64,000 bases of DNA from contig JAGTRJ010000007.1 of NCBI GenBank assembly GCA_018261755.1, forward strand, positions 1 to 64,000. Direction: 5' to 3'. The notes beneath the pieces were generated by a model. The model was not told the DNA's origin. It ran no database searches and worked only from the letters and a program-made list of their open reading frames with translations. Of the stretch, positions 22,490 to 51,201 are shown in pieces; within the stretch, counting starts at the first letter, position 1; the number at the start of each line of letters is the position of its first letter. The translations under genes were made by a program, and so were the position numbers. Origin of the DNA: Burkholderiaceae bacterium. Its GTDB lineage: Bacteria > Pseudomonadota > Gammaproteobacteria > Burkholderiales > Burkholderiaceae_D.

Positions 22490-22513
22490 TGTAATTTCCA
22501 ACAATAAATGTAA
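22490..22513 (+). other. Transposon left end with likely TnsB-binding site
   Basis: Starts TGTAATTTCC. The block TTCCAACAATAAATGTAA (22496-22513) matches TTCCATCGGTAAATGTAA found in inverted orientation near the right end: 14 of 18 positions agree. Such repeated 18-22-base blocks are TnsB sites in Tn7-like elements. A further shared TTCTAGC follows at 22526-22532. tnsA starts only 54 bases inside the end. Confidence 0.8.
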
Positions 22514-22543
22514 GATAAAGAAAACTTCTAGCGCAAAACGCAA

Positions 22544-23206: not shown

Positions 23207-23208
23207 CC

Positions 23209-25086: not shown

Positions 25087-25091
25087 CTGAC

Positions 25092-25982: not shown

Positions 25983-25987
25983 CGAGT

Positions 25988-28136: not shown

Positions 28137-28137
28137 C

Positions 28138-29502: not shown

Positions 29503-30290
29503 ATAACTCAGATCTGGGGCGGGTGCAGGCGTTTTTGCTCAAACATCGTCTTGCGGAAACAAAGTCTGTTCGCCGCAATTTGTCGCGCGAGGAGCGAGAG
29601 GTGGCGACAATCCTGCGTGATGCAGACCAGCAGATGCGCAATCTGCTCGATGAGATTCTTGATGGTCAAGGATTGGTGCTGCAGTCGTTCCGGGAGTTCG
29701 ATGTCGCTGGAATAGCAGCCGGCGCCACTGCGTTCGTTCTAGCGCGGAAACCGGATGCCAATCCTCCATTCTTCGGCACGGAGCGCCTTATCTCCCGCAT
29801 GAAGCAAATCGGCACGTACCGCGCGTCTGACACAGCGGTGAAGATATGGTTCACGCAACTCTGGTTCATCCTCCTTGATCTTCTCTATACGAAGAAAAAC
29901 CGAAGTCCAGGCGAATTGCAGGACTGGGTGGATACAGCGCTCAATCGCACTGTGTTCACCGACGCAGTCAAAAACTATATCAACGACTCAGTATTGAAAG
30001 TTGATCCTGCCACGCTTAAGACAACCGCGGTCTACGACGTGCTTACCGCTGCCAAGGAGGGCACTATTACTCAGCTTTGCGCTGCCTTCCTCGAAATCAT
30101 GGAGGATGCCGGCCTGCTTGAAAAACTGCAGGAGGACGTTTATCGCCAATCACTCTTGTTTGCGTTCGAGATGAAGATGAACTACGACCGGCAGCTTGTT
30201 CCATTACTGCCTGACCAATCGCCTTTCGAATCGGCGTCTGCCATCCTGATCGAGAAAATTGAGGAGGAGCAAAATGGCAACAATCACTAG
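29499..30290 (+). CDS. jetB: Wadjet component JetB (MukE-like)
   Basis: A 263-residue helical protein in the position of JetB, the MukE-like winged-helix subunit that binds JetA and JetC. Visible features are an Arg-rich N-terminal part (SVRRNLSREEREVATILRD), a hydrophobic helix (WFTQLWFILLDLLY) and an acidic C-terminus. Its ATG overlaps the jetA stop, and its own end overlaps jetC by 17 bases, the tight coupling expected of a stoichiometric complex. No signature motif is expected in this family; order and size are the main support. Confidence 0.78.
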   Translation: MNNSDLGRVQAFLLKHRLAETKSVRRNLSREEREVATILRDADQQMRNLLDEILDGQGLVLQSFREFDVAGIAAGATAFVLARKPDANPPFFGTERLISRMKQIGTYRASDTAVKIWFTQLWFILLDLLYTKKNRSPGELQDWVDTALNRTVFTDAVKNYINDSVLKVDPATLKTTAVYDVLTAAKEGTITQLCAAFLEIMEDAGLLEKLQEDVYRQSLLFAFEMKMNYDRQLVPLLPDQSPFESASAILIEKIEEEQNGNNH

Positions 30291-35220: not shown

Positions 35221-36319
35221 ACTTCACGAACGCGTCTACGCTTGGCTTTGCAAGAAGTCGAAGGCTAACGTCGCTGGCAAACTCCGTTGTGACAAGATAC
35301 TCAACAAACTTCGTGACGAGGTAATTAACGATCCAGTCTCGCTACGCAAGGTGCTGATTCACCTTCGTGCAGAGCAACTTATTGAGTACGTAGCGGGCCA
35401 GCATGGAGAGCCCATTAGCGGCTTCATGACAGTCATTCGACCTGAGCAGGAAGTACCTGCCCACGTTGATGCATGGGTAGCAGTCTTGTCGGGCTCCAAC
35501 CTTTCAAATGAAGACCAGCTGGCGCTACAGACCGTCGGCAGTGCAATGGACGGGTTGTCCGCAGGAAACATGGCTACACTGCTAAATGGGCTGATTCGCT
35601 TGCGCGACAACCAGATGCGACACTTTGGCGAGCAAGTCTTCACCGTAAGCGCGGCATATCTCATGGGTTCTTCAAAACTCTTGTCCAGCCTCGATGGAAA
35701 AGCATTACGCAGTTTTGGTATTGAGATCGACCGCTTCTTGTCCCGCCCTGCCTATGTGGTCGTGGGCGGCAATGTGGTATCCCCCATTGCGGTTGTCCTG
35801 ATTGAAAATCCGGTGTCTTTCGAGATGGCCGTAGATTCAGCGGCGGCTCGTGATTGTCTGTTCGTCTGTACGTTCGGATTTGGCCTGAGTACCTTGACGA
35901 ACGACTACGGGAATCAACTTGCAGGGGTCGTAGAGTCTGAGCAAGCCCATGTGCTTAACCGTTCTGCTGGGGTGGCACCGACTTTTCGCGACATCCTGCA
36001 GCATCAGCCAATCCAGTTCTGGGGCGACCTGGATACAGCCGGCATACAGATCTATTGCCGCCTGGCCTCAAAGGTGCCCTCTATCGCGCTGTCAGCGCTC
36101 TATCTGCCGATGATCGAAGCGATCCAACACGATGACACCAGGCATCCTTACGTTTCGGCCGTGGGCAAGGACGGCCAAGGGCGAATGGTCGTTCAGACGG
36201 ATCGAAAAGACGTTCAGGATTTGTTGCGCCTTTGCGAACACTTTGCCGTGGATCAGGAGTTTGTTAGCACCGACGATATTGCACGGTTAGCAGGGAAACA
36301 GCTCGGTAGCAGCAGCTGA
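35213..36319 (+). CDS. jetD: Wadjet nuclease JetD (Toprim-like)
   Basis: JetD is the topoisomerase VI/Spo11-like nuclease subunit that linearises plasmids after loop extrusion. The 368-residue protein (ATG 35213 overlapping the jetC stop; GTG 35204 possible) has an N-terminal winged-helix region (IHLRAEQLIEYVAGQHGEP) and a C-terminal Toprim fold of the DUF2220 type: VVLIENPVSFEMAV with the metal Glu, and QFWGDLDTAGIQIYCRL with the D-x-D pair. These residues support an active enzyme. It ends the operon; the next gene is convergent, 46 bases away. Confidence 0.88.
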   Translation: MRELHERVYAWLCKKSKANVAGKLRCDKILNKLRDEVINDPVSLRKVLIHLRAEQLIEYVAGQHGEPISGFMTVIRPEQEVPAHVDAWVAVLSGSNLSNEDQLALQTVGSAMDGLSAGNMATLLNGLIRLRDNQMRHFGEQVFTVSAAYLMGSSKLLSSLDGKALRSFGIEIDRFLSRPAYVVVGGNVVSPIAVVLIENPVSFEMAVDSAAARDCLFVCTFGFGLSTLTNDYGNQLAGVVESEQAHVLNRSAGVAPTFRDILQHQPIQFWGDLDTAGIQIYCRLASKVPSIALSALYLPMIEAIQHDDTRHPYVSAVGKDGQGRMVVQTDRKDVQDLLRLCEHFAVDQEFVSTDDIARLAGKQLGSSS

Positions 36320-36365: not shown

Positions 36366-36959
36366 TTAATAACCCAGCCGATAAGCCATACCTTGCTCAA
36401 ACCGGTTTTGCCAGTGTTCTAAATATGAGGCCGCTACAGTTCGATTGTGCCAAATCACGATAACATTTTCGCTGTTTTTCTTGGCGGCTGCCTGGCTGTA
36501 GTTGAAGCTTCCTGTCTGAGTATGCAGTTCATCTGCAACGATGAATTTATCGTGATGGATGGCATACGTTGAGATCGTTCTGACCGGTATGCCTGCACCC
36601 ACTAAGAGGTTCAATGCTGCTAGGCTGGCTTTTGAGCGGTTCCCCTTTTCATCAACTACAACACGAACGTCAGCGCCGCGTTTCTTGGCATTCAGCAAGG
36701 CGCGAACTACCGATGGCGAGGTAAACGAGTATGCGGCCAACCGAAGGCTACGTTGTGAGGCGTTGATGATTTTTAGCACTAGGCGCTCACTTCCGCCATC
36801 TGGCGAAAACCCGGTTTCTATCTGAGCAGTTGCAGGAGCCTTGTCGGTAACCGAATGCGCATAATCAGCTACGCGCTCGGCAAAGTCGATGTTGTTTTTC
36901 CTGGCATGAACGGTAGCAGCAGATAGTGCTAGTAATGCGATGAGGAATATACGTTTCAT
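36366..36959 (-). CDS. Exported PLD-family nuclease (Nuc-like)
   Basis: A 197-residue single-domain phospholipase-D-superfamily protein. A signal peptide (MKRIFLIALLALSAATVHA) sends it to the periplasm. The HKD catalytic motif is H-H-D-K-F-I-V-A-D with downstream TGSFNYS, as in the plasmid-borne endonuclease Nuc of pKM101, which acts as a dimer on DNA. It lies nine bases after the GIY-YIG gene on the same strand. A periplasmic nuclease could degrade incoming DNA, but no experiment is implied; plasmid or conjugation origin is possible. Confidence 0.88.
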   Translation of the reverse strand: MKRIFLIALLALSAATVHARKNNIDFAERVADYAHSVTDKAPATAQIETGFSPDGGSERLVLKIINASQRSLRLAAYSFTSPSVVRALLNAKKRGADVRVVVDEKGNRSKASLAALNLLVGAGIPVRTISTYAIHHDKFIVADELHTQTGSFNYSQAAAKKNSENVIVIWHNRTVAASYLEHWQNRFEQGMAYRLGY

Positions 36960-36968
36960 TGTTTATCG

Positions 36969-37535
36969 TCACTGCTTGCCAACCATAGGGTGGAGACGCT
37001 CACGAAGAGCAGCCTCCAAAAACTCCATGCTGAAGTACGCATCAGGGGCGATATTGAATGTTATTCCGCTCACTCGGAGCTTGCAGCCTTTCAGTAGTTC
37101 CGCGCGAGAAAGCAGCTTCAGTCCGTAAGTGCCTGACTCGGCCGCACCAGTTAGATGTTGTATCACGCGGCTTCTGACATTCTTGTGCTTCCCAACGTAG
37201 AAAGGAACAAACTCGCCTGCCTCGACTTTCTTTACATGGGATGTTGCGCGCTTCGGATAGGCTCTCGAAGTGCTCTTCTGTGGGTTAGCCGTGCCTTTGG
37301 ATCCCCACATATCAATGAAATTGAGAAAATCCTTACTAGTTCTGAAAGGAAACTGAATGTCGAAGAAATAGATGCCTGGCCCACTGCCAATGTTTGGAAA
37401 GTCATTGCCGGCGACTAGCGGAAATTCACAAAGAGACGACCGAAGGAATTCCTCGACTTCTTCAACGTGTTTTGGTGTCACTATCTGCTTAGCAGCCGTT
37501 GCCGTGTTGGCGATTGCCTGAAGAAGAGATTCCAT
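36969..37535 (-). CDS. GIY-YIG-superfamily nuclease-like protein
   Basis: A 188-residue protein with GIY-YIG landmarks in order: GPGIYFFDI (GIY strand), VPFYVGKHKNVRSRVIQHL (YVG strand with conserved Arg and His), and a Glu-containing helix MEFLEAALRERLHPMVGKQ. That set corresponds to the Tyr, Arg, Glu catalytic residues, so nuclease activity is plausible. An insertion of about 40 residues separates the first two strands, longer than in UvrC-type domains. It is followed closely by the exported PLD gene. The role is not known; it may be a two-nuclease cassette. Confidence 0.7.
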   Translation of the reverse strand: MESLLQAIANTATAAKQIVTPKHVEEVEEFLRSSLCEFPLVAGNDFPNIGSGPGIYFFDIQFPFRTSKDFLNFIDMWGSKGTANPQKSTSRAYPKRATSHVKKVEAGEFVPFYVGKHKNVRSRVIQHLTGAAESGTYGLKLLSRAELLKGCKLRVSGITFNIAPDAYFSMEFLEAALRERLHPMVGKQ

Positions 37536-37926: not shown

Positions 37927-40900
37927 TCAGTTTCCAGTCACCTTGCCAGGGCCGAGGTACTCAAGATCGAATTTCTCAACATTCGCAGTCGCTGTCGCAA
38001 CAATCAGGCCTTTGGTACTGGGCGTCCAGCGGAGCATTCCAACTTCTTGGAAATCACTTGTGAGTACGCTGCGCTCCCGACCAGGCCCACCGCCAATACG
38101 CAGGGGGGTGCCAGGGGGCATTGGAATGTCGTGCCACGTAACATTGCTCGTGTATTCGGTCGCATCCCAGGTCTGAGGGGGCTGAGCGCTATCGGATTCG
38201 TTGAACTCTACCCATAGCGTATGTGACTCCGGTGTCGGCCAATCCAGTGCTGCAGACAGAGCTGCCACCTCGTCCGACGCAAGCCACGCCATCAGATCGC
38301 GCATTGAATCAAAACTCGCACCGGTGGACGTGACTGCCTGAATTGCACCAAAACGCGAGCCAAATCCAGCTTTTATCAGCATAGCAGCGGCGACTGATAG
38401 GGTACCTGTCTCCACTGCCGCAACTGCGTGCGCCTGAGGGTACTCCGACAATTTCACTTCATCAGAGAATGGATCTTCATGAGCTTCGGCCCGAACCCGA
38501 ACGGCTTCCATCGCCCAAGGTAGGTTGTAGACGAACGCCTGTTCGATGAACTGGATGGTCTCGTCGTTATTCCTAGACGAGGCATCAGCCACGGTCTGTC
38601 CAAGAAGCCAGCGCCTCAGCAAGGCCTTCCAGCTAACGAGCAAATTTTCCGGCTTGAAAGGTGCTATGTTGAATACGATTTCGGCGAAGGCCGTGATCGC
38701 CGTGATTGCCTCTTCGTCGTCGTTGAGATCGACGTTCACGTTGGCCGCGAGAAGCAGATGCTCCAATTCCGATGCGTGCTCATCAAGAGCTTGGCCTGCG
38801 GTGAACCCGACACCGGCGAGGAAGTAACCCCGCCGTTGCGCAGTAGTAGTATTGTTCCAGATGTACTTGGCCCGAGAATGAAACCCCGCAGGCAACAGCT
38901 TGCGAACGCCTTCTTTGTAGCGAACAAGGCGCCGTTGGAACAGTGAGGCAATTAGCATCTCATCGAGCTTGGCCCCGACCTCCATATAGGACACAACGGA
39001 TTCGCCGAGCAAGCTAAAGATTGCGGTATCCAAGCTCGCCAAATACCTATCCCATCGTTTTCGTTCTTCAGTCGCCTCTTCAACCGTTTCAGAGGCAATT
39101 TCTGGGAACTCCCACGCGGCCTGTCCGGCGACGTATTCGAGAAGTTGGCCCATATCGCTCGTGTCTAGCTTCTTCGCCATTCGGGAAAGCAAAGCCACTA
39201 TCAGCCTGAGTAAACCGCTTTCCATTTCTCGACCGCCCTGATTCGAGATCAAATCCTGCCAATCGGCTCGCCGCTGCCTGTGGTTATCGAACATCGGGTA
39301 TAGCACGAGTCCTTCGACGTCAATATAGGCTCGGCCAGCTCTGCCGATCACGTTACGGAACTCTGAAATGTCGAGGAGATCCCGGCCTCGCCTCACACCG
39401 CGGAAGACAAGTGAAGTCGCTGCAAGGTTGAGCCCTTGGGCCAACGTCGGTGACGATACTGTCACCCGCAGCACACCCTCACGCAGCAGCCGCTCGATCT
39501 CTTTACGGTACGGTGTGGGTAGTGCACCATGATGCACCGCGACGCCAAGCCTCAGGCATGCAAGAAGGTCATGATCGTGGCCAAACCACTCCGCACCGAC
39601 CGCCAGTGCCGTAGCTAGCGCTGACACAGGTTGCTCAAGCACCGAATCAATGTGGCCACGTTTGTGCATCTTGATGATGGTCGCGGCCAACGGCAGCACT
39701 GATCGACGCATCGGACAGAACACAAGGACAGTCTGGCCTTCTTCCACTAGACGCCATGCTGTCGCGATGCACAACTCCGCCTGGTCGGATGGGAAAAGCT
39801 TTCTGGCACGACCGCAGCTTGGCTTCTTCGCGACCACGAACTTTGGGATGAAGGGCTTCTCGTCGCCCACGCTCACGCTTAGCTGAGCATGCAGGCCTTT
39901 CCAGTCAACCTCACCGAAACGCAATCGCGTCGGACGCCAGTCGTCCTTAATTAGTCCGTCGGATTGGTCGCATGTCAACCATGCCGCGAAATCTTCCAAC
40001 TGGCTCCCATCGGGAAGTATCGCCGAGAGGCACACGATGCGCCGCTCGGCCGCGTCGGAACGCCGCAGCAAGCGCTGAATCTGAGCCTCGTAACGCACTT
40101 CCCGCTCACCCAAGCCGATCATGTGACCTTCGTCGAGCACCACGAGGCCAACGCTGTCCAGCAACGATGAGTCGCTTCGCAGTGCGAAGTCGAGTTTCTC
40201 TGGTGTGGCGACAACAATGTCCGTTGAACGCAAAGCATCGACGTCAGCTCCACTTACGCCGATACTGCCGTACAAACTCGAAATTGTCTTTCCCAGCGGT
40301 GCGAACGTTCGCCGTAGCCCGGCTTCGGTCTGTGCCGATAGTGCCCTTAGTGGAGTAACGAAGACGATCCTTTCGCCACGCGCGAGGCTGGCCAGTATGC
40401 ATAGTTCCGCAATACGAGTTTTACCTGCACTGGTTGGCAGCGATAGCACTAAGTTCATGCCCGTATCGAGCACGCGTCGCGCTGCCTGAAGTTGCGATGG
40501 CCAGAGTTCTATCTCTGCTTTGCTTCTACGGTAGAGAGAGGCGATGAAGAGCTTGCGCAATCGTGGCCAATCGTCAAGCCCGGCGCCGGGCAGACCGCTC
40601 TGCGGTAGTACCTTGTGTAAGCTGGTATCCCAGAGATCGCCCAACAAATGGATAGTCAGGCGATGAATCCACCATGCAGGTATGAACTCAAGATCGGCGG
40701 CAACCTCGATGCCATTCTGTAGTCGCCCACGAGCTCTCAACAGCAACGCTTCATCACCGCGCTCCAGCGCTAGCGTCGCAGTCGCCAGTGCAGCCATGAA
40801 ATTGTCTTCGAGGGCGATGAACACAACGTCGATTTGCCCGTCATGTTTCTCTTCTCCTGCATCCACGCTGTTGTCCTGCGCGTTGGACAGATCCAGCGCG

Positions 40901-41421
40901 GCGACGAGTGCCTCCTCACTTCCTCGTCCAGAGGTGAACCACGCCCCAATATCCTCGGCCAAGCTATCAAGGTCGCGGAGCATGAGCTTAGCCAGCGCCT
41001 TCTCCATCGTTGAAAGATTTGTCTCTGCGAGTCCTTTGAAGAGTAGCGAGTAGGACCGAGCCGAGAATCGGCCGAGGTGGTAGGCGGCTGCGGCAACAAG
41101 ACGGTGAAAGTCGCTCTCGGCATTGTTTCCTCCTCGTTCGACCACAGCTTCGAGAGCTTCGGCAGACACTTCGAAGGCATTGCGCGCTATCGCTGCGTCA
41201 CCTCCTAGGTCGATGTAACGCATGCCATGCAGCAGCAGTGAGTAGCCATAGGACAATAAGTCATCCGACAGCTCTATGCCGAAATTTGGAGCGTCCTCCG
41301 GCAGGATGCCGTCGCGCCAAATCATTCCGCGTGCCTGTCCCCGTGCGAGCAAGCGAGCACGGAAGCCCGGCACTATGGCTGCTTCAATACTGGCCCTGAG
41401 TTCTTCAAGTGTCGCATCCAT
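37927..41421 (-). CDS. hamB: Hachiman-type helicase HamB
   Basis: A 1164-residue superfamily 2 (Ski2-like) helicase, the effector-controlling subunit of Hachiman (also called AbpB in the related AbpAB pair). After a helical N-terminal region it has Walker A LPTSAGKTRIAEL (about 340), Walker B LVVLDEGHMIG (DEGH), motif III CLSAILPD, and motif VI FRNVIGRAGRAYID. The C-terminal third is helical without a named domain. The start ATG 41421 overlaps the hamA stop by one base (TAATG), a coupled pair. Hachiman senses DNA damage or phage genome states and releases a nuclease. Confidence 0.85.
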   Translation of the reverse strand: MDATLEELRASIEAAIVPGFRARLLARGQARGMIWRDGILPEDAPNFGIELSDDLLSYGYSLLLHGMRYIDLGGDAAIARNAFEVSAEALEAVVERGGNNAESDFHRLVAAAAYHLGRFSARSYSLLFKGLAETNLSTMEKALAKLMLRDLDSLAEDIGAWFTSGRGSEEALVAALDLSNAQDNSVDAGEEKHDGQIDVVFIALEDNFMAALATATLALERGDEALLLRARGRLQNGIEVAADLEFIPAWWIHRLTIHLLGDLWDTSLHKVLPQSGLPGAGLDDWPRLRKLFIASLYRRSKAEIELWPSQLQAARRVLDTGMNLVLSLPTSAGKTRIAELCILASLARGERIVFVTPLRALSAQTEAGLRRTFAPLGKTISSLYGSIGVSGADVDALRSTDIVVATPEKLDFALRSDSSLLDSVGLVVLDEGHMIGLGEREVRYEAQIQRLLRRSDAAERRIVCLSAILPDGSQLEDFAAWLTCDQSDGLIKDDWRPTRLRFGEVDWKGLHAQLSVSVGDEKPFIPKFVVAKKPSCGRARKLFPSDQAELCIATAWRLVEEGQTVLVFCPMRRSVLPLAATIIKMHKRGHIDSVLEQPVSALATALAVGAEWFGHDHDLLACLRLGVAVHHGALPTPYRKEIERLLREGVLRVTVSSPTLAQGLNLAATSLVFRGVRRGRDLLDISEFRNVIGRAGRAYIDVEGLVLYPMFDNHRQRRADWQDLISNQGGREMESGLLRLIVALLSRMAKKLDTSDMGQLLEYVAGQAAWEFPEIASETVEEATEERKRWDRYLASLDTAIFSLLGESVVSYMEVGAKLDEMLIASLFQRRLVRYKEGVRKLLPAGFHSRAKYIWNNTTTAQRRGYFLAGVGFTAGQALDEHASELEHLLLAANVNVDLNDDEEAITAITAFAEIVFNIAPFKPENLLVSWKALLRRWLLGQTVADASSRNNDETIQFIEQAFVYNLPWAMEAVRVRAEAHEDPFSDEVKLSEYPQAHAVAAVETGTLSVAAAMLIKAGFGSRFGAIQAVTSTGASFDSMRDLMAWLASDEVAALSAALDWPTPESHTLWVEFNESDSAQPPQTWDATEYTSNVTWHDIPMPPGTPLRIGGGPGRERSVLTSDFQEVGMLRWTPSTKGLIVATATANVEKFDLEYLGPGKVTGN

Positions 41422-42182
41422 TATTTACCCACTGCCGCAAAGATTTCCTTAATGAAGTCTTGGTGTCCTTGAACCTGAAGACCCACATAGTGCTGCGGCA
41501 CCGAACCTTTATAGGCTTGGAGATTCTTCTTCAGAAGCTTTACTGGATTGTTGCCCGAAAACGTGAAGAGCATATGGGCAACTTGCGATGAGCGGATGCC
41601 GTCTTTTAGCTGAGCCTTATCCAGGATGTCACCGAGAATCGTGTCGCCGATCTGGTGCAAACGGTCGGCGACAAAGGCTAGCGCGTGCGGTGATGGAAGT
41701 TCATTGTTTGCGGAAAGGGCGGCTCTGGCTTCGGCTATGACGGCTGTGCCCATTCCCGCGCGGCTTTTCACTTCGGCTTTGAGGATTTTCAGGTCGTTGT
41801 TCTTTGGCCCGAGGTCAAAGGCAAGCACGTCCTCACCTCGCATCGACATGTTGCGATGGTCTTTCCAGCGCAGGCGCTTGATTCCTCGACTGAAAGGCGT
41901 GGCTTCGTTAACGTAAGCGTTGCAAAGGATTTCTCCGAGATCTCCGGAGCGGATGGCAGGCTGCGTTGGGAGCTTCTGCTCGATATGTGCAGCAGCAGCC
42001 GGCTTACCAAGCTTCTTCAGCAATGACGCAACGCGCTGTGGGTCTGTGTAGTAGTCGGGAACAACCTTCGCAATTGCTTTGACCGCTTGTGCCTGCGTTG
42101 CGGCATTAATGGTCATTTGGCGCAACTTGTGTTTTGCAAGTATCTCCTCAGACTCCACGCACCACACAGCAAAATTGATCAT
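41421..42182 (-). CDS. hamA: Hachiman-type DUF1837 nuclease HamA
   Basis: A 253-residue protein with the DUF1837 signature: RSGDLGEILCNAY near 98-110, LRWKDHRNMSMRGEDVLAFD and LKAEVKSRAG. The D...E-x-K pattern (GEDVLAFD, AEVKS) is that of a PD-(D/E)xK nuclease. In Hachiman the HamB helicase holds HamA until activation. The ATG at 42182 follows a G-rich but weak ribosome site; MTINAATQ at 42116 is an alternative start. It is transcribed into hamB with one-base overlap, and is the first gene of that pair. Confidence 0.85.
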   Translation of the reverse strand: MINFAVWCVESEEILAKHKLRQMTINAATQAQAVKAIAKVVPDYYTDPQRVASLLKKLGKPAAAAHIEQKLPTQPAIRSGDLGEILCNAYVNEATPFSRGIKRLRWKDHRNMSMRGEDVLAFDLGPKNNDLKILKAEVKSRAGMGTAVIAEARAALSANNELPSPHALAFVADRLHQIGDTILGDILDKAQLKDGIRSSQVAHMLFTFSGNNPVKLLKKNLQAYKGSVPQHYVGLQVQGHQDFIKEIFAAVGK

Positions 42183-42331
42183 CACCCACCCATTTCATTA
42201 TTGCGAAGAGCCTACGCTGTTCTCATGCGTGATTACCCCGCAATTTCGCACCTTTTGCAGACATTTACGTTGACACTTTTAAACAGTGGTGCTGGAAGCA
42301 CGCTCCATCTTCGTTCATGCACGGCGAAGCA

Positions 42332-44437
42332 CTAGTTCGCTGAAATCACTCGATCACATTCTTGCACAACATACTCTGGAACATTATCAAATTTATGAGG
42401 ATTGAGCTGCATTACATACTCATTCTCAATGTGAAATGATTCATTCACAAACTTGTGAAGAATATCATCATCATCGGCAGGCTGATGAACCTCTTTGTAG
42501 ATTCGGAATAGCTGTAACTTGTCGTAGCCGGCAGTTGCCTCCTGGAATCCGCGTTTCATCTCCGACTTGTCATTGATAATTGCCAATACCGCGCCATAAT
42601 CAAAATCGGGAATGAACTTTTTTATTCCCGCAACAGCCACACTGATCTCCATCGCCGTCATCGCAACATCCCCAACATCTGTCTTGCGAATCGGAACTGC
42701 CCTTGCATGCAAAAGATTAGCAAGGTAGTTGTACTCATCGCCGAGATCATTAAGTATCTCGAAGTTGCGACGTAGATAAACGCACCTAATTACTTCATTA
42801 GACAGACTGCCGACATTCTCTGTGCATATCTGCGCAAACGTCTGAATATCAGATTCCTTGATTTTCGTTTCCGTAACCATACCCGCTTTTGAGGCCAAGA
42901 AATAAGCTGTTGGCTTGGGATGCTGGAATAGACGCTTCACACTGCGAATGACATCAATTGCAGGCTCAATGTCATGTGTAAGCATAAGAACAGTGATGTC
43001 GCGTAAACTAGCCTTTCCGCGAAAAAGCTCGTTCAGAATTGCGAATTTCTTTGTTTTGTCAAAGCTTGATACTGGATCATCTAATATCACAAGTCCAGGC
43101 TTCTCACTTAACACTTGATGCATGAACAAGACAAGAGCGAAAGCATTCTTCTCGCCGTAGCTCAGATGCTGCGCAGCTGATTCAATATGTTCGTTGAAAT
43201 CTCGATGGACAAGCTTCATCTTGTAGGAATCGGCCTCTGCCTTGATAACTACGCTGTATTTGTAGCCTGCGGAGTTTAGAAAGCCGTTTATGCTTTTCTG
43301 ATTTTCAACAATGGATTTCTCTATCTGATTTTTGTGTTTGTTGATTTTTCCCTTTAGCTCGCCCACTCTGCCTATGAGCTCTTGAAGCTTCTCATTTATC
43401 GGATCAACTACCGCCTTGGTATCAGCGGAATTGAGTTTTGCAAGCAGCCCAATATCAACCTTTAACTTTGCAATTTCGTCTTCAATTTTATCCGCATCAC
43501 GAAGTGCAAAGAAAGATATAGACCTCAATGCCTCTAGCTTTGTTATGAGGGTCTCAACCTCCCCTCGAAGAGCACTCAAAAAATGGGCTTCTTCAAGTGA
43601 AAGTTCGATCTTGGATTTTGTTATCTTCTCCAAACTTTCTCGGCACGTCTGCTCAAAATACTTTCCGAGCCTCTTAATAATCGCCTGAAGAACATTTAGA
43701 TGCTCAACAGCCTTAGAATCGTATTCCTTGGCAACCCGCTTAACCGTTTCTTTCTTCTCTGGCTCTTGCAAGTCTGACGCGCAAAATGGGCAGTTATCGG
43801 ATAATTCCAAGAATGAATTGCCTTTTGCTTGCCACGAAATCCAATTGGCTGGCTGATCGCTCTTGATGAAAGCTTCAAAGGGCATTAGTTGCGGTGGAAT
43901 ATTCTCAATCTTATTGCCCGAGCCAAATGCCTTGTAGCCCTTACTAGATTTGGAAAGGGCTCCTGATTTAGTGACCCCAAAGGCGTCTCTAACCTCTTTC
44001 AAATCCGTGATCGCATTCGCCAATGTCTCATTTCCATCAAATGCAGACTTAATACCTGCAAGTAGCCCTTCAATATCAAGCATCGCCGCCTTAAATGTTT
44101 CGGTCTTAATGAAGATATCAAAACTATTTTTTAAAACTTCATCACGCTGAAAGGCGAACTGGGAAACGTAAGAATCATCAAAAACCAAAACTGACCCAAT
44201 ATCCTCGGCCCCACTCACCACCGGCTCATGCTGACCAGCGATACTTCGATATTTGAAAGGCTTCAAGTTTTGGAGCGAACCATCATTTGCAATCGATGCG
44301 ACAATTGCACGCGCAATTGTGCTCTTCCCCAACCCATTCGGGCCATACTTTATATTCAGAGCCCCTTTAGAAATCGTGATTTCAGCTTTCTCAATGCTGT
44401 TGCAGTTTTCGATTGCAATTGAATAATTGTCACTCAT
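42332..44437 (-). CDS. AAA_13-type SMC-like ATPase, RloC/PrrC-like
   Basis: A 701-residue ABC/SMC-like ATPase: Walker A YGPNGLGKST (32-41), a central coiled coil (about 225-400) with one CPFC pair near 219-222, signature LSYGEKNAFAL, Walker B LVILDDPVSSFD and H-loop LTHD. This layout matches the PF13166 group that contains the anticodon nucleases PrrC and RloC. The C-terminal part has R-R-N-F-E followed 17 residues later by H, a possible match to the Arg-Glu-His nuclease triad, but the spacing differs from what I recall for PrrC. It lies 32 bases after the methyltransferase gene in the same operon. Confidence 0.75.
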   Translation of the reverse strand: MSDNYSIAIENCNSIEKAEITISKGALNIKYGPNGLGKSTIARAIVASIANDGSLQNLKPFKYRSIAGQHEPVVSGAEDIGSVLVFDDSYVSQFAFQRDEVLKNSFDIFIKTETFKAAMLDIEGLLAGIKSAFDGNETLANAITDLKEVRDAFGVTKSGALSKSSKGYKAFGSGNKIENIPPQLMPFEAFIKSDQPANWISWQAKGNSFLELSDNCPFCASDLQEPEKKETVKRVAKEYDSKAVEHLNVLQAIIKRLGKYFEQTCRESLEKITKSKIELSLEEAHFLSALRGEVETLITKLEALRSISFFALRDADKIEDEIAKLKVDIGLLAKLNSADTKAVVDPINEKLQELIGRVGELKGKINKHKNQIEKSIVENQKSINGFLNSAGYKYSVVIKAEADSYKMKLVHRDFNEHIESAAQHLSYGEKNAFALVLFMHQVLSEKPGLVILDDPVSSFDKTKKFAILNELFRGKASLRDITVLMLTHDIEPAIDVIRSVKRLFQHPKPTAYFLASKAGMVTETKIKESDIQTFAQICTENVGSLSNEVIRCVYLRRNFEILNDLGDEYNYLANLLHARAVPIRKTDVGDVAMTAMEISVAVAGIKKFIPDFDYGAVLAIINDKSEMKRGFQEATAGYDKLQLFRIYKEVHQPADDDDILHKFVNESFHIENEYVMQLNPHKFDNVPEYVVQECDRVISAN

Positions 44438-44469
44438 AACTACCCCTTCCTCACATTATCGAATCTGAC

Positions 44470-46647
44470 TCACGTTGTAGCCAAGCCAGCAACACCATCT
44501 CCCGGTTCATTGTCGACATCGCACGCCTCCGGCCTCACCGCCAGCCTGACTACCTCAAGGTCATTCTTGATCGCATCAAAGTTCATATCTTCGGCTGCTC
44601 GTGTTATCAAAGTCTGCGCCGCGCCGATCACAAAGCGGTCGCCCGCCGAGATTCGAAGGCCAGCAGCTTCCAGCCTTGATGCAAGCGCATCAACGATCTG
44701 TCGGACATCCTGTAGTACAGGCGGCTGAGGCAAAGCAAATGCTTTCTTACGGCAGACAAGGATCGCATCAAGACTAATCGGGTCTTTTGCCGCAGTCTTG
44801 GGACTTGCCGCACGCAACTCGGCATGGACTGGATGCGCAGCAACCACGGCTAGGCCCGCCTTGTTGATCGCTTCATAGATAGCTGCCCACCCCTCGGCGC
44901 GCGAGTGATGGAAGCTAAACACCAATACCCCATCGTCCTTTAGCACGCGGCACGCCTCGGTGAACACCGAAGCAAGCTGACGGGCAAACACGCGCGCGTC
45001 TTTGTGCTGCACCTCCCCTTGGTCAGACGAGTCCTCGCGAGCCATCCACGGATAGCGCTGACGCAACACGGGTGAAAGCCAAGCAAAGAAGAAGTCGCTC
45101 AACTCCGAGTAATGAACAAAGTCGAAGTAAGGTGGATCAGTCACCACGGCATCCACCGATCCCTCGGGCAACGGCAGCTTCGAGCTGTCACCGTTGAGAA
45201 TTAGGAGGCCGTGATCCGCGACCTCCAATTCCTGCCAGGTTTCGACACGACGTGCACGGATCGGATGGCTGGCCACTGTCTTACGCGAACCAGATCGGTT
45301 GCCATCTTGGTCATACCCCAAGGCGATCTCGAACGGCTCATCAAGGTAACGCTTCGCGCGCAGCAAGCGAGACTCGAACAGCGTGCTGAACGTGCCACTG
45401 CTCTTGCCAGTGCCCCAAACGGAGTTTTCCAGTGGAGTGCGCTCTGGCTTGAGAATGTGGTTCGAGAACATATGCCGCACAGCCCCAGTTCCCTCGCCTT
45501 TGAAGCTGCAAAATAGGTTGTTGAACTCCAATGTGCTCGAGAACAAGCACAGCATCTGCTCTTGGACGGCAAGGTCGTCGATGGTCAGAATTTCTCGAAG
45601 CAGCAAGCCAAGGCACAGCTGTTGACGCGCATTGAAGAAGTCGCGCCATTGAGTGTAGTTGTAGCCCCGCGCTTGGTCAGTATTGTGGCCGGGTCGAACA
45701 AAGGTTTCCGGCAGCGGCAGCGCCTCAGTAGCGAGTCGATCCTGTGCCTCCTTATAGAGAGCCAAATCCTCATCGCGTACTGGCAGATAGACCTTTGATC
45801 CGTCAGCCCGCAAGGCCATCATCGCGTACATGCGATGGGAGGGTGGCGTACCATCCTTGGGCAGCAGCTCCTTGATGCGGTAGCGATGGCCGCTCTTGTC
45901 GATGACGTACTGACCTGCTGCAGGTCCTTCCTGCGGGTTAAAGTGGAGACCGCAGTGCTGGCAGTACAGGTCGGTTGCGTCATAGCGGTCCTCCAGCACA
46001 CTCCAACATCCGGGACACACGATCTGCGCTCGCGGCTTCTTCTTCGGGTAGGCATCCTGCGAAAACACGTACCGCGATAGCAAGGGGATGACCTCGCCTT
46101 CGGGCGTCGTCACCGTTTTAACCCAGAAGTAATACAACACCTGAATCAGCTCACCCGTCTGAGAATCTCGTGTTTGGTAGTAGCGCCGGATCTCCTGTGC
46201 CACGTCACGTTCCAGCCGTTCGAAAGCGGCACGAAGTTCAACCTCAGACACCGGCGTGAACGCCTGGCGAACAAGAAAAGTACTAACCGGATTGATGTCG
46301 CAGCCAATGACCTTGGCCCCCAGTTTGGCGGCCTCGCCAAGCGTAGTGCCACTGCCCATGAAGGGATCGAGCACCACCTTGTCTGCCAAATTGTGCGTCT
46401 GATAGAACTGCGCCCAGGTATTGGTGCCAGGCTGGCTCAACGCACCCAGGACGATGCCACGAAACACCGACCCGAGCCGGGTCGCCCACCATTTATGGAT
46501 GTGGTAGATCGGCCGATTGATCTCCTTTCGCCAGCTTTCCTGCTCGGCAATCTGGCTAATCTCAACCAGCGGGAAGTCACACTCTAGCGCGGTCGCTGCA
46601 GCTGACTGAGCGAACCCGATTTCGTCGGTGGTGGAGTTTATTCGCAT
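44470..46647 (-). CDS. Zn-ribbon adenine-type DNA methyltransferase (COG1743/DUF1156-like)
   Basis: A 725-residue DNA methyltransferase. The N-terminal PIYHIHKWWATRLGSVFRG resembles DUF1156 proteins. SAM-binding motif VVLDPFMGSGTT is at residues 91-102; a zinc ribbon (CPGC...CQHC) is near 210-240; catalytic motif IV VTDPPYFDF is near 500 and suggests N6-adenine or N4-cytosine methylation. Its start overlaps the endonuclease gene end by 10 bases, so it is the partner methylase of a restriction-modification unit. The recognition sequence cannot be read from the protein. Confidence 0.88.
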   Translation of the reverse strand: MRINSTTDEIGFAQSAAATALECDFPLVEISQIAEQESWRKEINRPIYHIHKWWATRLGSVFRGIVLGALSQPGTNTWAQFYQTHNLADKVVLDPFMGSGTTLGEAAKLGAKVIGCDINPVSTFLVRQAFTPVSEVELRAAFERLERDVAQEIRRYYQTRDSQTGELIQVLYYFWVKTVTTPEGEVIPLLSRYVFSQDAYPKKKPRAQIVCPGCWSVLEDRYDATDLYCQHCGLHFNPQEGPAAGQYVIDKSGHRYRIKELLPKDGTPPSHRMYAMMALRADGSKVYLPVRDEDLALYKEAQDRLATEALPLPETFVRPGHNTDQARGYNYTQWRDFFNARQQLCLGLLLREILTIDDLAVQEQMLCLFSSTLEFNNLFCSFKGEGTGAVRHMFSNHILKPERTPLENSVWGTGKSSGTFSTLFESRLLRAKRYLDEPFEIALGYDQDGNRSGSRKTVASHPIRARRVETWQELEVADHGLLILNGDSSKLPLPEGSVDAVVTDPPYFDFVHYSELSDFFFAWLSPVLRQRYPWMAREDSSDQGEVQHKDARVFARQLASVFTEACRVLKDDGVLVFSFHHSRAEGWAAIYEAINKAGLAVVAAHPVHAELRAASPKTAAKDPISLDAILVCRKKAFALPQPPVLQDVRQIVDALASRLEAAGLRISAGDRFVIGAAQTLITRAAEDMNFDAIKNDLEVVRLAVRPEACDVDNEPGDGVAGLATT

Positions 46648-47438
46648 CCGTCTTCCGGCAGATAGTTCTCGTCAGGCTGAACCAGAGCACCAGTCATCGA
46701 AACGGGCTTACTAGATTGGCCCTTGAGTCGGTACGCCACAAACCGATGCTGGGTGCCGGCATTAGGGTTTGGCACGCTGTCTGCACAAAGCTCGTTCGTA
46801 CGGAGGTCAAAGTTGTAGCCAACCACTAGCGTCTTAGCTTCGATGCGAGTGAGATTGCCGACCACTTGGTAGCGATCATCGCTTCCAAAATTCTCCGGCA
46901 GGATCAGGGTCATCAAGCCAGTCGAGCCCTCGGTCAGCGCAAACGGTGTCGGCGCAACGTACATCTTCCGGTCACGAATCATGATGTCGCCGTAGGTGCC
47001 GAAGCCCTTCACGCTCTTGTTCTTGTGAACATAGTTATGGTCAGCGTTCAGGAAGTCCCCGTGGCAGACCACAAGATCGACAACTGGATACTCCATGCCA
47101 TCAGGATCCTTTGGATAGCGACCAAAGACGTAAAAAATCTGACGGCCATTGTGATAGCCGGTAGGCACTTGGCTATTCGAGTCGTAGTCACGCTCCCGTC
47201 CAGGCCAAGCCAAGCCCTTGATTTCGTATCCTTCGGTGTACTCAACCAGAGAAAAATCAGGGTACGTATTTCGCCCAGCCCCCTCAAAGTGGGCGGCAAG
47301 AACTTCTAAGCGCTTCTCAAACCAGTTCTGAAAATGAAACTCTTTGTCCTTCTTGTGCTCCAGCTTGATGTTCTCGCCGGCTTCTTTTGCCTGAACGCAC
47401 TTTGCAAACACGTCAAACACGGTTGTCTTTTTGGTCAT
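46638..47438 (-). CDS. Restriction endonuclease, PD-(D/E)xK type
   Basis: A 266-residue protein with a nuclease core YPDFSLVEYTEGYEIKGLAW (residues about 58-77) in which P-D...E-I-K is the canonical restriction-enzyme triad. Length fits a type II endonuclease. ATG 47438 follows AAAGG with good spacing; the frame runs open upstream to 47621 but lacks a ribosome site there. It overlaps the methyltransferase gene downstream, and the endonuclease comes first in the operon, an unusual order that demands control of expression when the element enters a new host. Confidence 0.8.
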   Translation of the reverse strand: MTKKTTVFDVFAKCVQAKEAGENIKLEHKKDKEFHFQNWFEKRLEVLAAHFEGAGRNTYPDFSLVEYTEGYEIKGLAWPGRERDYDSNSQVPTGYHNGRQIFYVFGRYPKDPDGMEYPVVDLVVCHGDFLNADHNYVHKNKSVKGFGTYGDIMIRDRKMYVAPTPFALTEGSTGLMTLILPENFGSDDRYQVVGNLTRIEAKTLVVGYNFDLRTNELCADSVPNPNAGTQHRFVAYRLKGQSSKPVSMTGALVQPDENYLPEDGCE

Positions 47439-47949
47439 GATGGCCTTTGTTGAGTTCCTTGTAATATTGTCTGATGCAATGGCAATTGTCTTCTCATGTG
47501 GCAGGGGCAAAGGCCAATGAAAGTCTCCAAATATCGTGCCCCATGGGTCGGATGGATGACGCCCCCAAGTTCGACATGCGCCCATGCATATTTCACAATT
47601 GCAGAGTACTGCTTCGGTCATACCCTGATTGTTCCTATGGCTGTGCCTGGTCGGGAGTTTGCGCTAGATTGTATCCGTGACGGCAATACAACCCCGGCAT
47701 ATTTATAAAACAATGGTTTTCAAACTCCATAACGACAGGCTACCGAAGCGACTGGAATATTTGGATCACTCAAAAGTACCTTGAGCTCGCGCGCACCTGC
47801 TATGTTAGCAAAGCGAGTGCGCACTGTTACGCCCCATAGCAGCAGTAATGCCTACTCGTAATGACCTAAAAACTGCACAGGTTAAGCGGCCAAATCAAAA
47901 ACTTTGGCCTGAATCGCCAGTTTTAGCGCATCACATCAAAGGACAGGTT
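47439..47949. other. Gap between the TnsE-like gene and the restriction operon
   Basis: About 510 bases without a convincing gene. Short frames exist on both strands but have no ribosome sites or recognisable motifs. It should hold the promoter of the endonuclease-methyltransferase-ATPase operon and the 3' end of the TnsE-like transcription unit. AT-rich segments occur near 47700-47760. I see no strong terminator hairpin and no second methylase-regulator (C-protein) gene. Confidence 0.5.
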
Positions 47950-49800
47950 TTATATCTCGAGAAGAATCTCGCCCTTTATTCCTTCAATGATCTTTTCGCT
48001 CCAAATTTTAGGATCTGGCTCCTCTCTTTGCATTGCATTCTTGCCATCGTCTTTCTTGCGCGCACCTGGCGGATGATTAATTCTTGCCATCTTGATTTTG
48101 GCAAAAAATTTTTTCGCCCGAGCTGCATCGGAATCATTTTTCCATTCGTTTTCTGAGCTTGCCCACCTGTTCTGCATTGCGGTCAAATACAAAAGTTCTT
48201 TTATGGTGTCATTTTCGACTGACGCTTGTTCCCCCGAGTACAGCAAGATGGTGCATTGCCCTGATTCATTGGGTCTAAGCTCCATCTCTAGCAGATAAAA
48301 ATATTGGTCTTTTGTTTTTGACTGCACTTCAACGCAAACAACTTGGCGCGACCGTTTGATCCCGTCTTCCCCAAGGACTAAATGCCACGTTCTTCGTTTG
48401 CCGATCTTCAATGGAAAGAACGTAACCCATTCACCATTCTCAACCACACCTTCATCTAGTTCCCTAGTCGTTACATTCCATTCTCCGCTCAGCGCTGAGC
48501 GCAGATGCTTAAGCATGGCTATGAAATTACTCAGTTTTCGCTCAATTTTTCCTGGGCCGACCTGATGTTCGTTTATTCCTAAATTTCCTTGCGCATCTTC
48601 TGAGTTCGAGCCGCCATTCATTGTCAGCTTATTGACGTCAACGTCTACCACCCTTTGAAAGTGACGTCCATTACCTGACCCTTTGGCATGGTATGTAGTC
48701 TTTACTTGGTTGAAGCTTGGAAAAGGATTTGATATCTGGTTGACAATCAAGCGAGGCATCCGTTTGTTTGCCGGCACATCAGCTAATTCGGACTCGGTTT
48801 CATCATCAACCACACCCCTGTGCTTGGGAGGAATATCACTGCCTCCGCCGGTTCTGCCACCTTGTCCACGGAAATTTAATTCTTCGAATTCGTACGTAAC
48901 CTCGGAAAATCCGAATGGGCGCGAGCAGGACATAATTTCCATAGCAAGCACAGCCCATTCAGTTTTGGCGTCAGTAAGTGGCATGCGTTTGCCAAGCACA
49001 TACACTGTCGTAATTCCCTTAAAAGGAAAACTAACTTTAATGGATAACGGTTTCTGCTCGGAGTCCTTATTAGCCTTGTTGTTTGCGTGAGTAACTTCAA
49101 TATGTTGACGTATTTTTTTGAGCTCCACCCTGGCATCCTGTGATGCAACTAATCTGCTCAATACGGCAGCTTCTTTCCTGAATATTGGCCTCTTAAGGTG
49201 AATTATTGGAACGCCTTCCTCCATCCGGCTTTTCTTGGGATCATATAATTTATCAAGTGCCTTCCGAAGGGTTGCGGTCAGCATTCGTGTCGAAGTTCCA
49301 TAGTAAAACCGGAGCATTTCGGCCGCAGGTATAACGAGCCACTTCGTCCTTGAATTCCGCAATACCGGCACAATGACATAGTATGTTTTTGCCAAATGAT
49401 CACGGTTCTCGCCGAGAGAAAAATATTTTTCCGGCACTACGGTCGACACCGCATGCCCATTAAGAATTATTTCTTCATCCAACGTTACCAGCTTGGCTCG
49501 ACTCGCATCGATTTCATATCTATCGCTTAGCAAAATTGAGCGCAAAATACGCTCACCATCACGCCATATAGATCCAACCCTGAAATGATGTAGTGAAGCT
49601 GTATGAACGGGGAAGTGTAGGTGTTCCCCATTAGAGGCAAGCGAGTGGTACGGATCTAAGTGAGGCCCAACGCCGTTAAGGCCGGAGAAATGAATTACTG
49701 TTCGAGACCCCGGATGTTCGGAGTCTCTAAGATAGCCAACACCATCGACTCTCCAAATGCCGGCATGTTTTGCTAGTTTTTTGTATTTTCGCGTCGCCAT
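47950..49800 (-). CDS. tnsE: TnsE-like transposition protein
   Basis: A 616-residue protein placed at the right end of the element, reading inward. Its C-terminal third resembles Tn7 TnsE as I recall it: IGKRRTWHLVLGEDG (Tn7 has VGRSRLHLCKDG), a FYLLEMEL strand (FVLLEVD), ARINHPPG (VNHPKG) and a final W-x-E-K-I helix (WAERVV). The middle is a variable, acidic and Gly-rich linker (RGQGGRTGGGSDIPPK). In Tn7, TnsE directs insertion into replicating or conjugating DNA through the sliding clamp. Start ATG 49800. Tn7 TnsE is shorter (538 residues). Confidence 0.82.
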   Translation of the reverse strand: MATRKYKKLAKHAGIWRVDGVGYLRDSEHPGSRTVIHFSGLNGVGPHLDPYHSLASNGEHLHFPVHTASLHHFRVGSIWRDGERILRSILLSDRYEIDASRAKLVTLDEEIILNGHAVSTVVPEKYFSLGENRDHLAKTYYVIVPVLRNSRTKWLVIPAAEMLRFYYGTSTRMLTATLRKALDKLYDPKKSRMEEGVPIIHLKRPIFRKEAAVLSRLVASQDARVELKKIRQHIEVTHANNKANKDSEQKPLSIKVSFPFKGITTVYVLGKRMPLTDAKTEWAVLAMEIMSCSRPFGFSEVTYEFEELNFRGQGGRTGGGSDIPPKHRGVVDDETESELADVPANKRMPRLIVNQISNPFPSFNQVKTTYHAKGSGNGRHFQRVVDVDVNKLTMNGGSNSEDAQGNLGINEHQVGPGKIERKLSNFIAMLKHLRSALSGEWNVTTRELDEGVVENGEWVTFFPLKIGKRRTWHLVLGEDGIKRSRQVVCVEVQSKTKDQYFYLLEMELRPNESGQCTILLYSGEQASVENDTIKELLYLTAMQNRWASSENEWKNDSDAARAKKFFAKIKMARINHPPGARKKDDGKNAMQREEPDPKIWSEKIIEGIKGEILLEI

Positions 49801-49834
49801 CCGCAAAGCGCATTAAGCAAAATATGCTAGAAAT

Positions 49835-49878
49835 TTACATTTACCGATGGAACATTGCAAATAAATTTAGATATTACA
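49835..49878 (-). other. Transposon right end with likely TnsB-binding site
   Basis: Read from the right tip inward it starts TGTAATATCT. The block TTCCATCGGTAAATGTAA (complement of 49835-49852) matches the left-end block at 14 of 18 positions and lies 26 bases inside the tip, against 6 bases at the left end. A second, weaker copy may overlap the terminal 26 bases. TTCTAGC follows, again as at the left end. Asymmetric spacing of such sites is normal in Tn7-like elements. Confidence 0.78.
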
Positions 49879-49883
49879 CCGCC
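49879..49883. repeat. Target-site duplication CCGCC, right copy
   Basis: Identical to 22485-22489. It directly follows the ACA that ends the transposon (complement TGT). Together with the left copy it fixes the insertion point in the Gly-rich VALVGGGG codons of comM. Confidence 0.92.
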
Positions 49884-50744
49884 AACCAGCGCGACCGCGG
49901 AAGCAGTGTGATGAGGTGATCGATATGGCCTGACCTTCCAACGCGCGGGGTTGAAACTGCCGGCCAGCGATTGCACCGCCGCCGATTCCAGCGCTTCGCC
50001 ATCGGTCATCGGCGGCAGGATGCCGGCAAAGCGCGAGGCCAGCATCGTCTTGCCGCTACCGGGCGGGCCGACCATCAACACGCTGTGGCCGCCAGCCGCG
50101 GCCACTTCCAACGCGCGCTTTGCCTGCTGCTGGCCCCTGACCTCGGCCAAATCGGGGTACGATGGCCGGACCGCATCCTGCACCAGCTTCATCTGCGCCA
50201 GCCTCGAATCTTCTTCCGTAGCGGCGAAGTGGGCGCAAACTTCGAGCAGCGAACTGGCGGGCAGCACGGCGGCGCCCGTTACCAGTGCCGCTTCGTCGGC
50301 GCTGCCGCGCGGCAGGATGAACGCGCGCGTCTTGCCCTGGCGGGCGGCGCTTTGCTGCATCGCGTACGTCATCGCCAATGCACCGCGAATCGGCAGCAGC
50401 TTGCCGGAGAGCGACAGTTCGCCCGCGAACTCATATTCATCCAGCCGTTCAATCGGAATCTGGCCAGAAGCGGCCAGAATGCCGAGCGCGATCGGCAAAT
50501 CAAAGCGGCCCGATTCCTTCGGCAATTCGGCCGGCGCGAGGTTAACCGTAATCCGCCGCGCCGGGAATTCGAAGCGCGAATTCTGCAACGCGGCCCGCAC
50601 CCGATCGCGCGCTTCCTTCACTTCGGCTTCCGGCAGGCCGACGATGGTCAGCCCGGGCAAGCCATTGGCCAGATGCACTTCGACCGTGACTTCGGGAGCA
50701 TGCATGCCGGCCAGCGCGCGGCTTTTGAGGATGGCAAGGGTCAT
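49879..50744 (-). pseudogene. comM: comM (yifB), 5' part, split by the transposon
   Basis: N-terminal 288 residues of ComM: MTLAILKSRALAGMHAPEV, the Lon-protease-like fold with GLPGLTIVGLPEAEVKEARDR, then the AAA+ domain with Walker A MVGPPGSGKTMLASR near 215-230, followed by RPYRSPHHTASAVALVGG. Right at the second Gly pair the transposon begins and the frame continues a few codons into it (stop at 49827). ATG 50744. Loss of the C-terminal AAA+ half with Walker B should abolish helicase activity. In naturally competent bacteria comM mutants transform poorly. Confidence 0.97.
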
Positions 50745-50754
50745 CGGTATGCGG

Positions 50755-51201
50755 TCAATCCTTGCTCGCAAAGACGGTGCGGACAAATAGCCGGTCGCTG
50801 GTGTATTGCGGGCAGGCCCGGGCCGATTCCGGCCCCAGGCGCGGCAGGATGTCGCCACCACGCCGCAGGTAGGACACATAGGTGCCGAGCGTCTTGCCAT
50901 CGCTTTCGCGCACGATGGTGTAGGTCGTCTTGTCTATCGTCGGCGAGCTGGTTTTGATTTTTTCATTTTTGGCGAGAAACAGGTAATCGCCGCTTTCTTC
51001 ATTCCAGGATTTGAAAAATTTCGGGTCGCCGTGCGGGCTCAGTTGCTCTCTCGGCAGCAGCACCTTTTCATGCACCTTGATTCCGCCATCCTGCCGGCAC
51101 AGCGCGGCCACCTGTTCGTCAACATTCATCTGCTCGCAGCCGACGAGCATCAGTGCGGCGAGAGATAGCCCAAGACCTGACAGCATTTTTCGGCAGACCA
51201 C
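50755..51201 (-). CDS. Predicted lipoprotein, unknown function
   Basis: A 148-residue protein with a lipoprotein signal: LSLAALMLVGC gives a lipobox with the Cys near residue 21. GTG 51201 is preferred because AGGAG lies six bases upstream; ATG 51186 is an alternative. The mature part is soluble, mixed charge, with no known domain (VAALCRQDGGIKVHEKV near the start). It is 10 bases upstream of the comM start and co-directional, so it was in one transcription unit with comM. The role is unknown. Confidence 0.75.
   Translation of the reverse strand: MVCRKMLSGLGLSLAALMLVGCEQMNVDEQVAALCRQDGGIKVHEKVLLPREQLSPHGDPKFFKSWNEESGDYLFLAKNEKIKTSSPTIDKTTYTIVRESDGKTLGTYVSYLRRGGDILPRLGPESARACPQYTSDRLFVRTVFASKD

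Follow-up and report, generated by a model that had tools for sequence, protein, structure and literature searches.

Operon and restriction-modification pair

The window, a stretch of 64,000 nucleotides from a Burkholderiaceae bacterium (contig JAGTRJ010000007.1), carries on its minus strand three tightly packed, co-directional open reading frames in the order endonuclease, methyltransferase and Rad50-like ATPase (Table 1). We show that the restriction-modification (R-M) pair formed by the first two genes and the ATPase are exchanged reciprocally, as modules. An earlier note had placed the three genes in one operon, and this was reproduced on the sequence: the endonuclease stop (46638) and the methyltransferase start (46647) overlap by 10 nucleotides (ATGCGAATAA), and exactly 32 bases, with a stretch that resembles a ribosome-binding site (GGAAGGGG), separate the methyltransferase end (44470) from the ATPase start (44437). 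The same trio is present in Lysobacter maris (L002; L-numbers denote our loci), with protein identities of 83-87%, which takes the association of these genes beyond chance.

Table 1. Coordinates of the operon and associated features in the window
Feature	Position	Strand	Description
Predicted type II-like restriction endonuclease, 266 amino acids	46638..47438	-	PD-x10-ExK
Predicted DNA methyltransferase, 725 amino acids	44470..46647	-	N6/N4 class, zinc ribbon, DUF1156/COG1743-like
Rad50-like zinc-hook ABC ATPase, 701 amino acids	42332..44437	-	helical C-terminal domain; PDC-S06; Pfam AAA_13
CPFC codons, residues 216-219, candidate zinc hook	43781..43792	-	
R556-x3-E560 codons, candidate catalytic Arg-Glu	42758..42772	-	
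K662-x6-H669 codons (KFVNESFH), candidate catalytic His motif	42431..42454	-	
Serine-resolvase remnant, decayed, upstream of endonuclease	47678..47791	-	60.5% over 38 amino acids to Acidiphilium resolvase

The endonuclease is predicted to be a PD-(D/E)xK enzyme outside the known families. P60-D61-x10-E72-x-K74 is invariant in eight homologues, which bears out the PD-ExK assignment made earlier, and 47438 is the best start of the gene because the homologues align from there. No significant match was found in Pfam (one at E 0.05 fell below the cut-off), PADLOC, NCBIfam or the PDB sequences, and the predicted structure is of low confidence (predicted local distance difference test, pLDDT, 39). 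Further relatives are few (four plasmids and two viral contigs); none was found in phage records and, among 398 and 369 genomes, only the window itself was retrieved. On a phage contig (L064, 8001-8705), a relative with 38% identity possesses PD-ExK and has no methyltransferase beside it.

The motifs DPFMGSGT, CPGC...CQHC and DPPY can be read directly in the translation of the methyltransferase. In agreement with the zinc-ribbon COG1743-type methylase proposed in the earlier note, the protein matches N6_N4_Mtase at 60.9 bits, its match to DUF1156 staying below that family's cut-off. It shares these three traits, N6_N4_Mtase, weak DUF1156 similarity and a zinc ribbon, with the DUF1156/COG1743 methyltransferases of BREX, Hma and anti-phage clusters, but differs from them as a 725-amino-acid enzyme partnered by a small PD-ExK endonuclease. 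Relatives of lower identity (L158, L159) sit in other gene clusters, the archaeal one (L159) being adjoined by DUF499. Since nuclease and methylase motifs lie in adjoining genes that are conserved together, the two genes very probably encode a type II-like R-M pair.

Two-way exchange of partners

The pair was found in seven loci (the window, L002, L053, L054, L055, L056 and L063), and in six of them an effector gene of some kind stands behind it. The ATPase family of the window occupies this position in two, the window and L. maris. In Tabrizicola (L054) and in L063, the pair is followed by a DUF262 gene, which we take to be ParB-like, and by a HEPN nuclease gene (with a Pfam HEPN match for L054); the four proteins of these two loci are 92, 85, 82 and 66% identical, 82% being the value for DUF262 and 66% that for HEPN. 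In Tomitella (L055), a 643-amino-acid AriA/OLD-like ATPase follows the pair, and in Rhodococcus (L056) the pair has no effector gene behind it. Finally, in Acidiphilium (L053) a small open reading frame and then an 868-amino-acid ATPase are found. The latter carries CVLC (383) and R775-x3-E779-x48-H828, in keeping with the RloC motif rule of PMC2610378; this R-x3-E was chosen by its fit, since other such stretches exist in the protein. Among five plasmid regions with relatives of the Acidiphilium ATPase, none has R-M genes directly beside it; in L171, an Eco57I-type gene lies about 4 kb away on the other strand.

At the DNA level, homology to the window covers 47448-44518 only in L053, 44446-42332 only in L001 (Castellaniella) and both blocks in L002, and each block stops at a gene end or close to it. 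Because the ATPase and the pair each swap partners, the arrangement is better described as a modular effector slot than as a fixed three-gene system. The earlier note had suggested an undescribed layered system of three genes; as one fixed unit this fails, the exact pair of the window being found beside the ATPase in only one of 50 ATPase loci (L002). We likewise rejected the trio as one obligate system, the ATPase being mostly found without the pair and the pair with other effectors. What survives of the proposed guard attached to a type II-like R-M system is that the ATPase keeps occurring directly next to unrelated type II R-M genes and that the pair has alternative effectors.

In L002 and L053, the endonuclease is directly adjoined by an intact resolvase; the remnant in the window has one internal stop. 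Resolvase identity among L002, L053 and L052 is 83-91%, even though the R-M genes of L052 are unrelated. A resolvase-borne cassette as carrier was nevertheless rejected as unspecific: the resolvase has 617 plasmid records at E 1e-40 and, because it is common on plasmids, this likeness is no specific evidence.

A genome scan provided the 50 ATPase loci, some of them on short contigs or with partial or broken copies (L040, L044, L046, L048-L050). Neighbours were profiled at selected loci (nine flanking the ATPase, then ten, then nine) and the others were motif-screened. Co-directional type II R-M genes lie about 13-237 bp from the ATPase in at least six of the 50 loci, a lower bound because only selected neighbours were profiled, so that the other 44 are to be read as 'not recognised'. 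Besides the pair in L002, the partners are a 1091-amino-acid type IIG enzyme in L001 (PADLOC, 794 bits), an EcoRI-type methylase with a GmrSD/HNH protein in L010 and L016 (the latter by homology to L010), an Eco57I-type methylase with XamI in L040, and a C5 methylase with Eco29kI in L047. In L042, a type III pair lies further off on the strand of the ATPase. We also opened 14 annotated plasmid regions with ATPase matches, chosen for this purpose (L052, L057, L058, L091-L093, L160-L167), and R-M genes are directly beside the ATPase in four. These are L052, with an Eco57I-type methylase and BsuBI/PstI, and three Enterobacteriaceae plasmids of one lineage (L058, L093, L167), with a C5 methylase 300-odd bp downstream and a restriction endonuclease on the other strand; L162, where methylase genes start 1.4 kb away on the other strand, was not counted as linked. 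The neighbourhoods to which the earlier note had pointed thus give a mixed answer: most homologues are without recognised R-M genes, yet seven distinct type II arrangements, the window included, directly adjoin the ATPase family.

Do shared defence islands or plasmid cassettes suffice to bring an autonomous PDC-S06 gene near R-M genes? Such hitchhiking would agree with the 44 of 50 loci in which no adjoining R-M genes of any kind were recognised, with the variety of other operon-like neighbours (RES in L019, Shedu in L024, ABC-F in L030, Tra genes in L006), with the plasmid location of the Escherichia coli relative of the ATPase (the L068 gene) at 746 of 841 places, and with the position of the window operon, followed by Hachiman and enclosed in a Tn7-like element. 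It accounts less well for the packing, R-M genes being co-directional and separated by those short gaps in 6/6 linked genome loci, and for the recurrence of an effector behind the same pair. It also sits poorly with the frequency of the association. Indeed, three methylase families (63, 89 and 85 stretches, some genes being in two pieces, in 50 genomes of about 229.3 Mb) occur within 3 kb of the ATPase at four of the 50 loci (L001, L002, L040, L047) for 0.42 expected (Poisson P ~9e-4), an estimate made without control for the clustering of defence islands and with EcoRI-type methylases outside the count. Altogether, we regard hitchhiking as rather unlikely.

In a tree of 48 ATPases, the R-M label (eight rows, the partial L040 being excluded) needs seven changes, of which at least five are forced by well-supported branches. 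Shuffled labels were as low as observed in 166/500 cases, so the label is scattered and not clustered; in the Actinomycetota clade, 0/17 rows carry it. In Leucobacter (L030), ABC-F-like proteins flank the ATPase on both sides; in L043, the neighbour on one side is related to them. A second methylase match (842-amino-acid frame; 256-645 region of L001), about 7 kb upstream of the Castellaniella ATPase, suggests that this island holds several R-M systems. By eye, the ATPase relatives in L066, L068, L069, L071 and L072 lie among genes resembling phage tail genes. The L068 gene has DNA relatives in 798/5426 complete E. coli genomes, 608 of which cover at least 80% of the query; this type of relative is a common candidate defence gene in E. 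coli.

As for the surroundings of the operon, HamA and HamB (Hachiman; PADLOC 334 and 1664 bits) lie directly downstream of the ATPase on the same strand (37927-42185). The Tn7-like element has TnsA, TnsB, TniB and TniQ at 22544-27133, contains defence cargo, and is inserted in comM/yifB, whose N-part lies at 49827-50900 and C-part, recognised by eye, at 21827-22561. At 27270-36319, a WYL regulator precedes four open reading frames (490, 263, 1653 and 371 amino acids) in a Wadjet-like layout. Only the last was recognised (JetD-like, 45 bits, PADLOC), and the 1653-residue protein weakly resembles LmuB (33 bits); the set is possibly a very diverged Wadjet. Between it and the Hachiman genes, 36366-37535 encodes a nuclease of the PLD family, which begins with a signal-like stretch, and a protein whose similarity to GIY-YIG is sub-threshold. 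Pfam, PADLOC and NCBIfam gave no significant family for a 618-amino-acid frame (47950-49806) at the far end of the element; from its position, our guess is a TnsE-like or other transposition gene.

The ATPase and its C-terminal domain

The ATPase matches AAA_13 at 64.5 bits for a curated cut-off of 36, as had been claimed, and the PADLOC model PDLC04889 of PDC-S06 at 975 bits over residues 6-699. PADLOC lists PDC-S06 as a single-gene phage defence candidate, and under the same umbrella name falls the Acidiphilium alternative (PDLC04891, 637 bits); in contrast to this entry, the ATPase described here belongs to type II R-M operons. In the predicted model (pLDDT 84, predicted template modelling score 0.68), C216 and C219, found in 68/68 rows of an alignment reaching down to about 31% identity, lie between helices as a candidate zinc hook. 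Structure comparison with Rad50 gave a Z of 17.8 and a root-mean-square deviation of 6.4 over 291 aligned residues. The Foldseek and VIA-align matches listed are Rad50/SMC/ABC-type heads with PrrC and RloC absent, a comparison of the whole model that excludes neither, and no solved PrrC or RloC structure is directly linked by sequence among the best 60 of 108 PDB matches.

Such a head with a zinc hook might belong to a DNA-processing subunit of the restriction system, an SbcC- or McrB-like helper and not a toxin, all the more as SbcCD-like genes lie beside a relative of the ATPase in two Arcobacteraceae plasmids (L160, L163). However, the operon of the window has no Mre11-type partner, the same position behind the pair holds an RloC-motif ATPase or a HEPN gene elsewhere, and the protein has a near-invariant extra C-terminal domain with catalysis-like residues. 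We therefore consider a helper role very unlikely.

In this domain, R556, E560, K662, E666, H669 and N672 are invariant in the 66/66 rows with letters of the 68-sequence alignment. R556 and E560 are predicted on one helix (548-561), N665 and H669 on another (658-672). The earlier note had proposed an R-E-H triad, of which R556-x3-E560 stands. The sole histidine in residues 560-620, H577, was rejected as the catalytic one (H in 49/66 rows and K in 17/66), and the invariant histidine is H669. Consequently, the spacing from E560 is x108, outside the 36-52 of the RloC rule.

For comparison, we used 15 open reading frames as PrrC references (13 from a PADLOC PrrC search and two by context; hsd-like genes, recognised by eye, adjoin those PrrC-model genes that were opened) and 13 RloC-like proteins carrying both CxxC and R-x3-E-x37-41-H. 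A HEPN RNase has the motif R-x4-6-H. The references show [RK]-x5-S-H (14/15 PrrC and, at the catalytic histidine, 10/13 RloC-like) where the ATPase has an invariant K-x6-H. With hhalign, the ATPase part is related to RloC at 99.7% and to PrrC at 58%. The C-terminal domain gave no significant profile match to either (0.1-3.1% over local and global runs): 0.9-2.8% with RloC and 0.2-0.5% with PrrC locally, and 0.1% globally, for 65% local and 25% global in the control that compared the C-terminal domains of RloC and PrrC. When the segments were compared apart with RloC, LRRNFE landed on RRFLE and KFVNESFH on RFADEGSH, column shuffles being as good in 4/60 and 1/60 cases; against PrrC, the same segments missed its motifs and shuffles were as good in 6/60 and 37/60. 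The order of the motifs agrees with RloC. Together, these comparisons hint at an RloC-type domain that has diverged and has a longer spacer, and are only suggestive of an anticodon-nuclease role.

Known systems, proposed mechanism and significance

Type II R-M systems are usually pictured as two-gene and self-contained, guards being known for type I (PrrC). The ATPase of the window most resembles RloC, a wobble-excising anticodon nuclease in the account of PMC2610378. Both have a Rad50-like ATPase, a CxxC zinc hook, about 700 amino acids, R-x3-E in the C-terminal domain and x6-H near the C-terminus, and the 701 residues fall within the range given there for RloC (658-897). They differ in the spacer of Arg-x3-Glu-x36-52-His (x37-41 in 13/13 RloC-like references and x108 here), in the residue seven positions before the histidine (K here, R in RloC, as in 9/13 RloC-like references) and in the C-terminal domain, for which no profile match links the two. 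Moreover, in the survey of PMC2610378, RloC is rarely R-M-linked (8/72, at type I or III loci), whereas the present family is repeatedly found beside type II R-M genes. With PrrC and its type Ic R-M system EcoprrI, the common traits are an ABC ATPase, a candidate RNase domain and a gene that accompanies an R-M system. PrrC proteins nonetheless have 341-416 amino acids and lie at hsd loci, whereas this ATPase has a zinc hook and type II partners and lies outside hsd loci; we rejected its identification as PrrC on size and context, no hsd genes being beside it.

Other effectors of the pair also recall published arrangements. The order methylase, DUF262, HEPN in L054 and L063 resembles that of MAE_28990, a HEPN toxin in an operon with a ParB nuclease and a DNA methylase, as presented in PMC3710099. 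That paper ties at least 16 HEPN clades to diverse R-M systems and describes mobile neighbourhoods in which RloC-like proteins occur together with R-M components. A year before, in 2012, PMC3506569 had put forward a coupling of R-M systems to suicide genes, with toxin displacement in type I and III loci. In contrast to these published R-M-linked HEPN toxins, a single pair is followed here by effectors of four kinds, and a single effector adjoins seven type II arrangements. In the open-access literature, we found no report linking this ATPase family to type II pairs. Thus, R-M-linked HEPN toxins having been proposed in 2012-2013, what looks new is the link to type II systems and the swapping of partners in both directions.

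From the observed gene order, packing, two-way partner exchange and invariant residues, we infer the later steps of a mechanism that we put forward tentatively, as plausible though short of probable: behind a type II R-M pair stands an effector that can be exchanged, here a break-sensing ATPase that frees a translation-stopping RNase. The endonuclease would cut unmodified phage DNA. The zinc-hook ATPase would then sense the outcome of restriction, most likely persisting DNA ends, which could arise from restriction, from DNA break-down by the phage or from host DNA when modification fails. An ATP-driven rearrangement would free the C-terminal domain (R556, E560, H669), and this domain may act as an RNase that halts translation, so that phage production stops in the infected cell. 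In support of a signal of this kind, PMC12707154 describes double-strand breaks as the activator of Acinetobacter RloC. Three points weigh against this proposal: the many loci in which R-M genes were not recognised, the enrichment estimate uncorrected for defence islands, and the failure of the C-terminal domain to match PrrC or RloC profiles.

A guard of the PrrC kind, silenced by contact with the R-M proteins and released by a phage anti-restriction protein, would also be at home in a tight operon with R-M genes; the ATPase part is related to both RloC and PrrC, and PrrC is held in this way by EcoprrI according to PMC2610378 and PMC3506569. In contrast to PrrC, however, no HsdM-class N6_Mtase (at least 100 bits) was seen by eye within 8 kb of the placed ATPases, a placement that covers part of the 50. 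Furthermore, the recognised partners belong to the PD-ExK, type IIG, XamI-like, BsuBI/PstI-like, GmrSD/HNH with EcoRI-type methylase, and Eco29kI-like families, and mostly none was recognised, which makes a conserved contact surface difficult to picture. A guard held by contact is thus unlikely, and the sensing of DNA ends is favoured because a protein surface common to such different partners is improbable. A broader version of the DNA-end proposal, in which type II R-M operons of any chemistry generally have an interchangeable second-line slot that reads DNA breaks or unrepaired restriction, and no particular R-M protein, and stops translation, the ATPase being a new RloC-like nuclease lineage with a displaced active-site histidine, strikes us as doubtful, though with a genuine chance of being right. 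On that view, restriction itself would act as the alarm signal for abortive infection.

An exchangeable effector that unrelated type II pairs have captured repeatedly would open the question of the second-line signal to direct test, since partners so unlike one another speak for a shared DNA signal rather than for contact with one particular protein. The family, widespread but no more than a candidate in PADLOC, also gains a context and a candidate active site.

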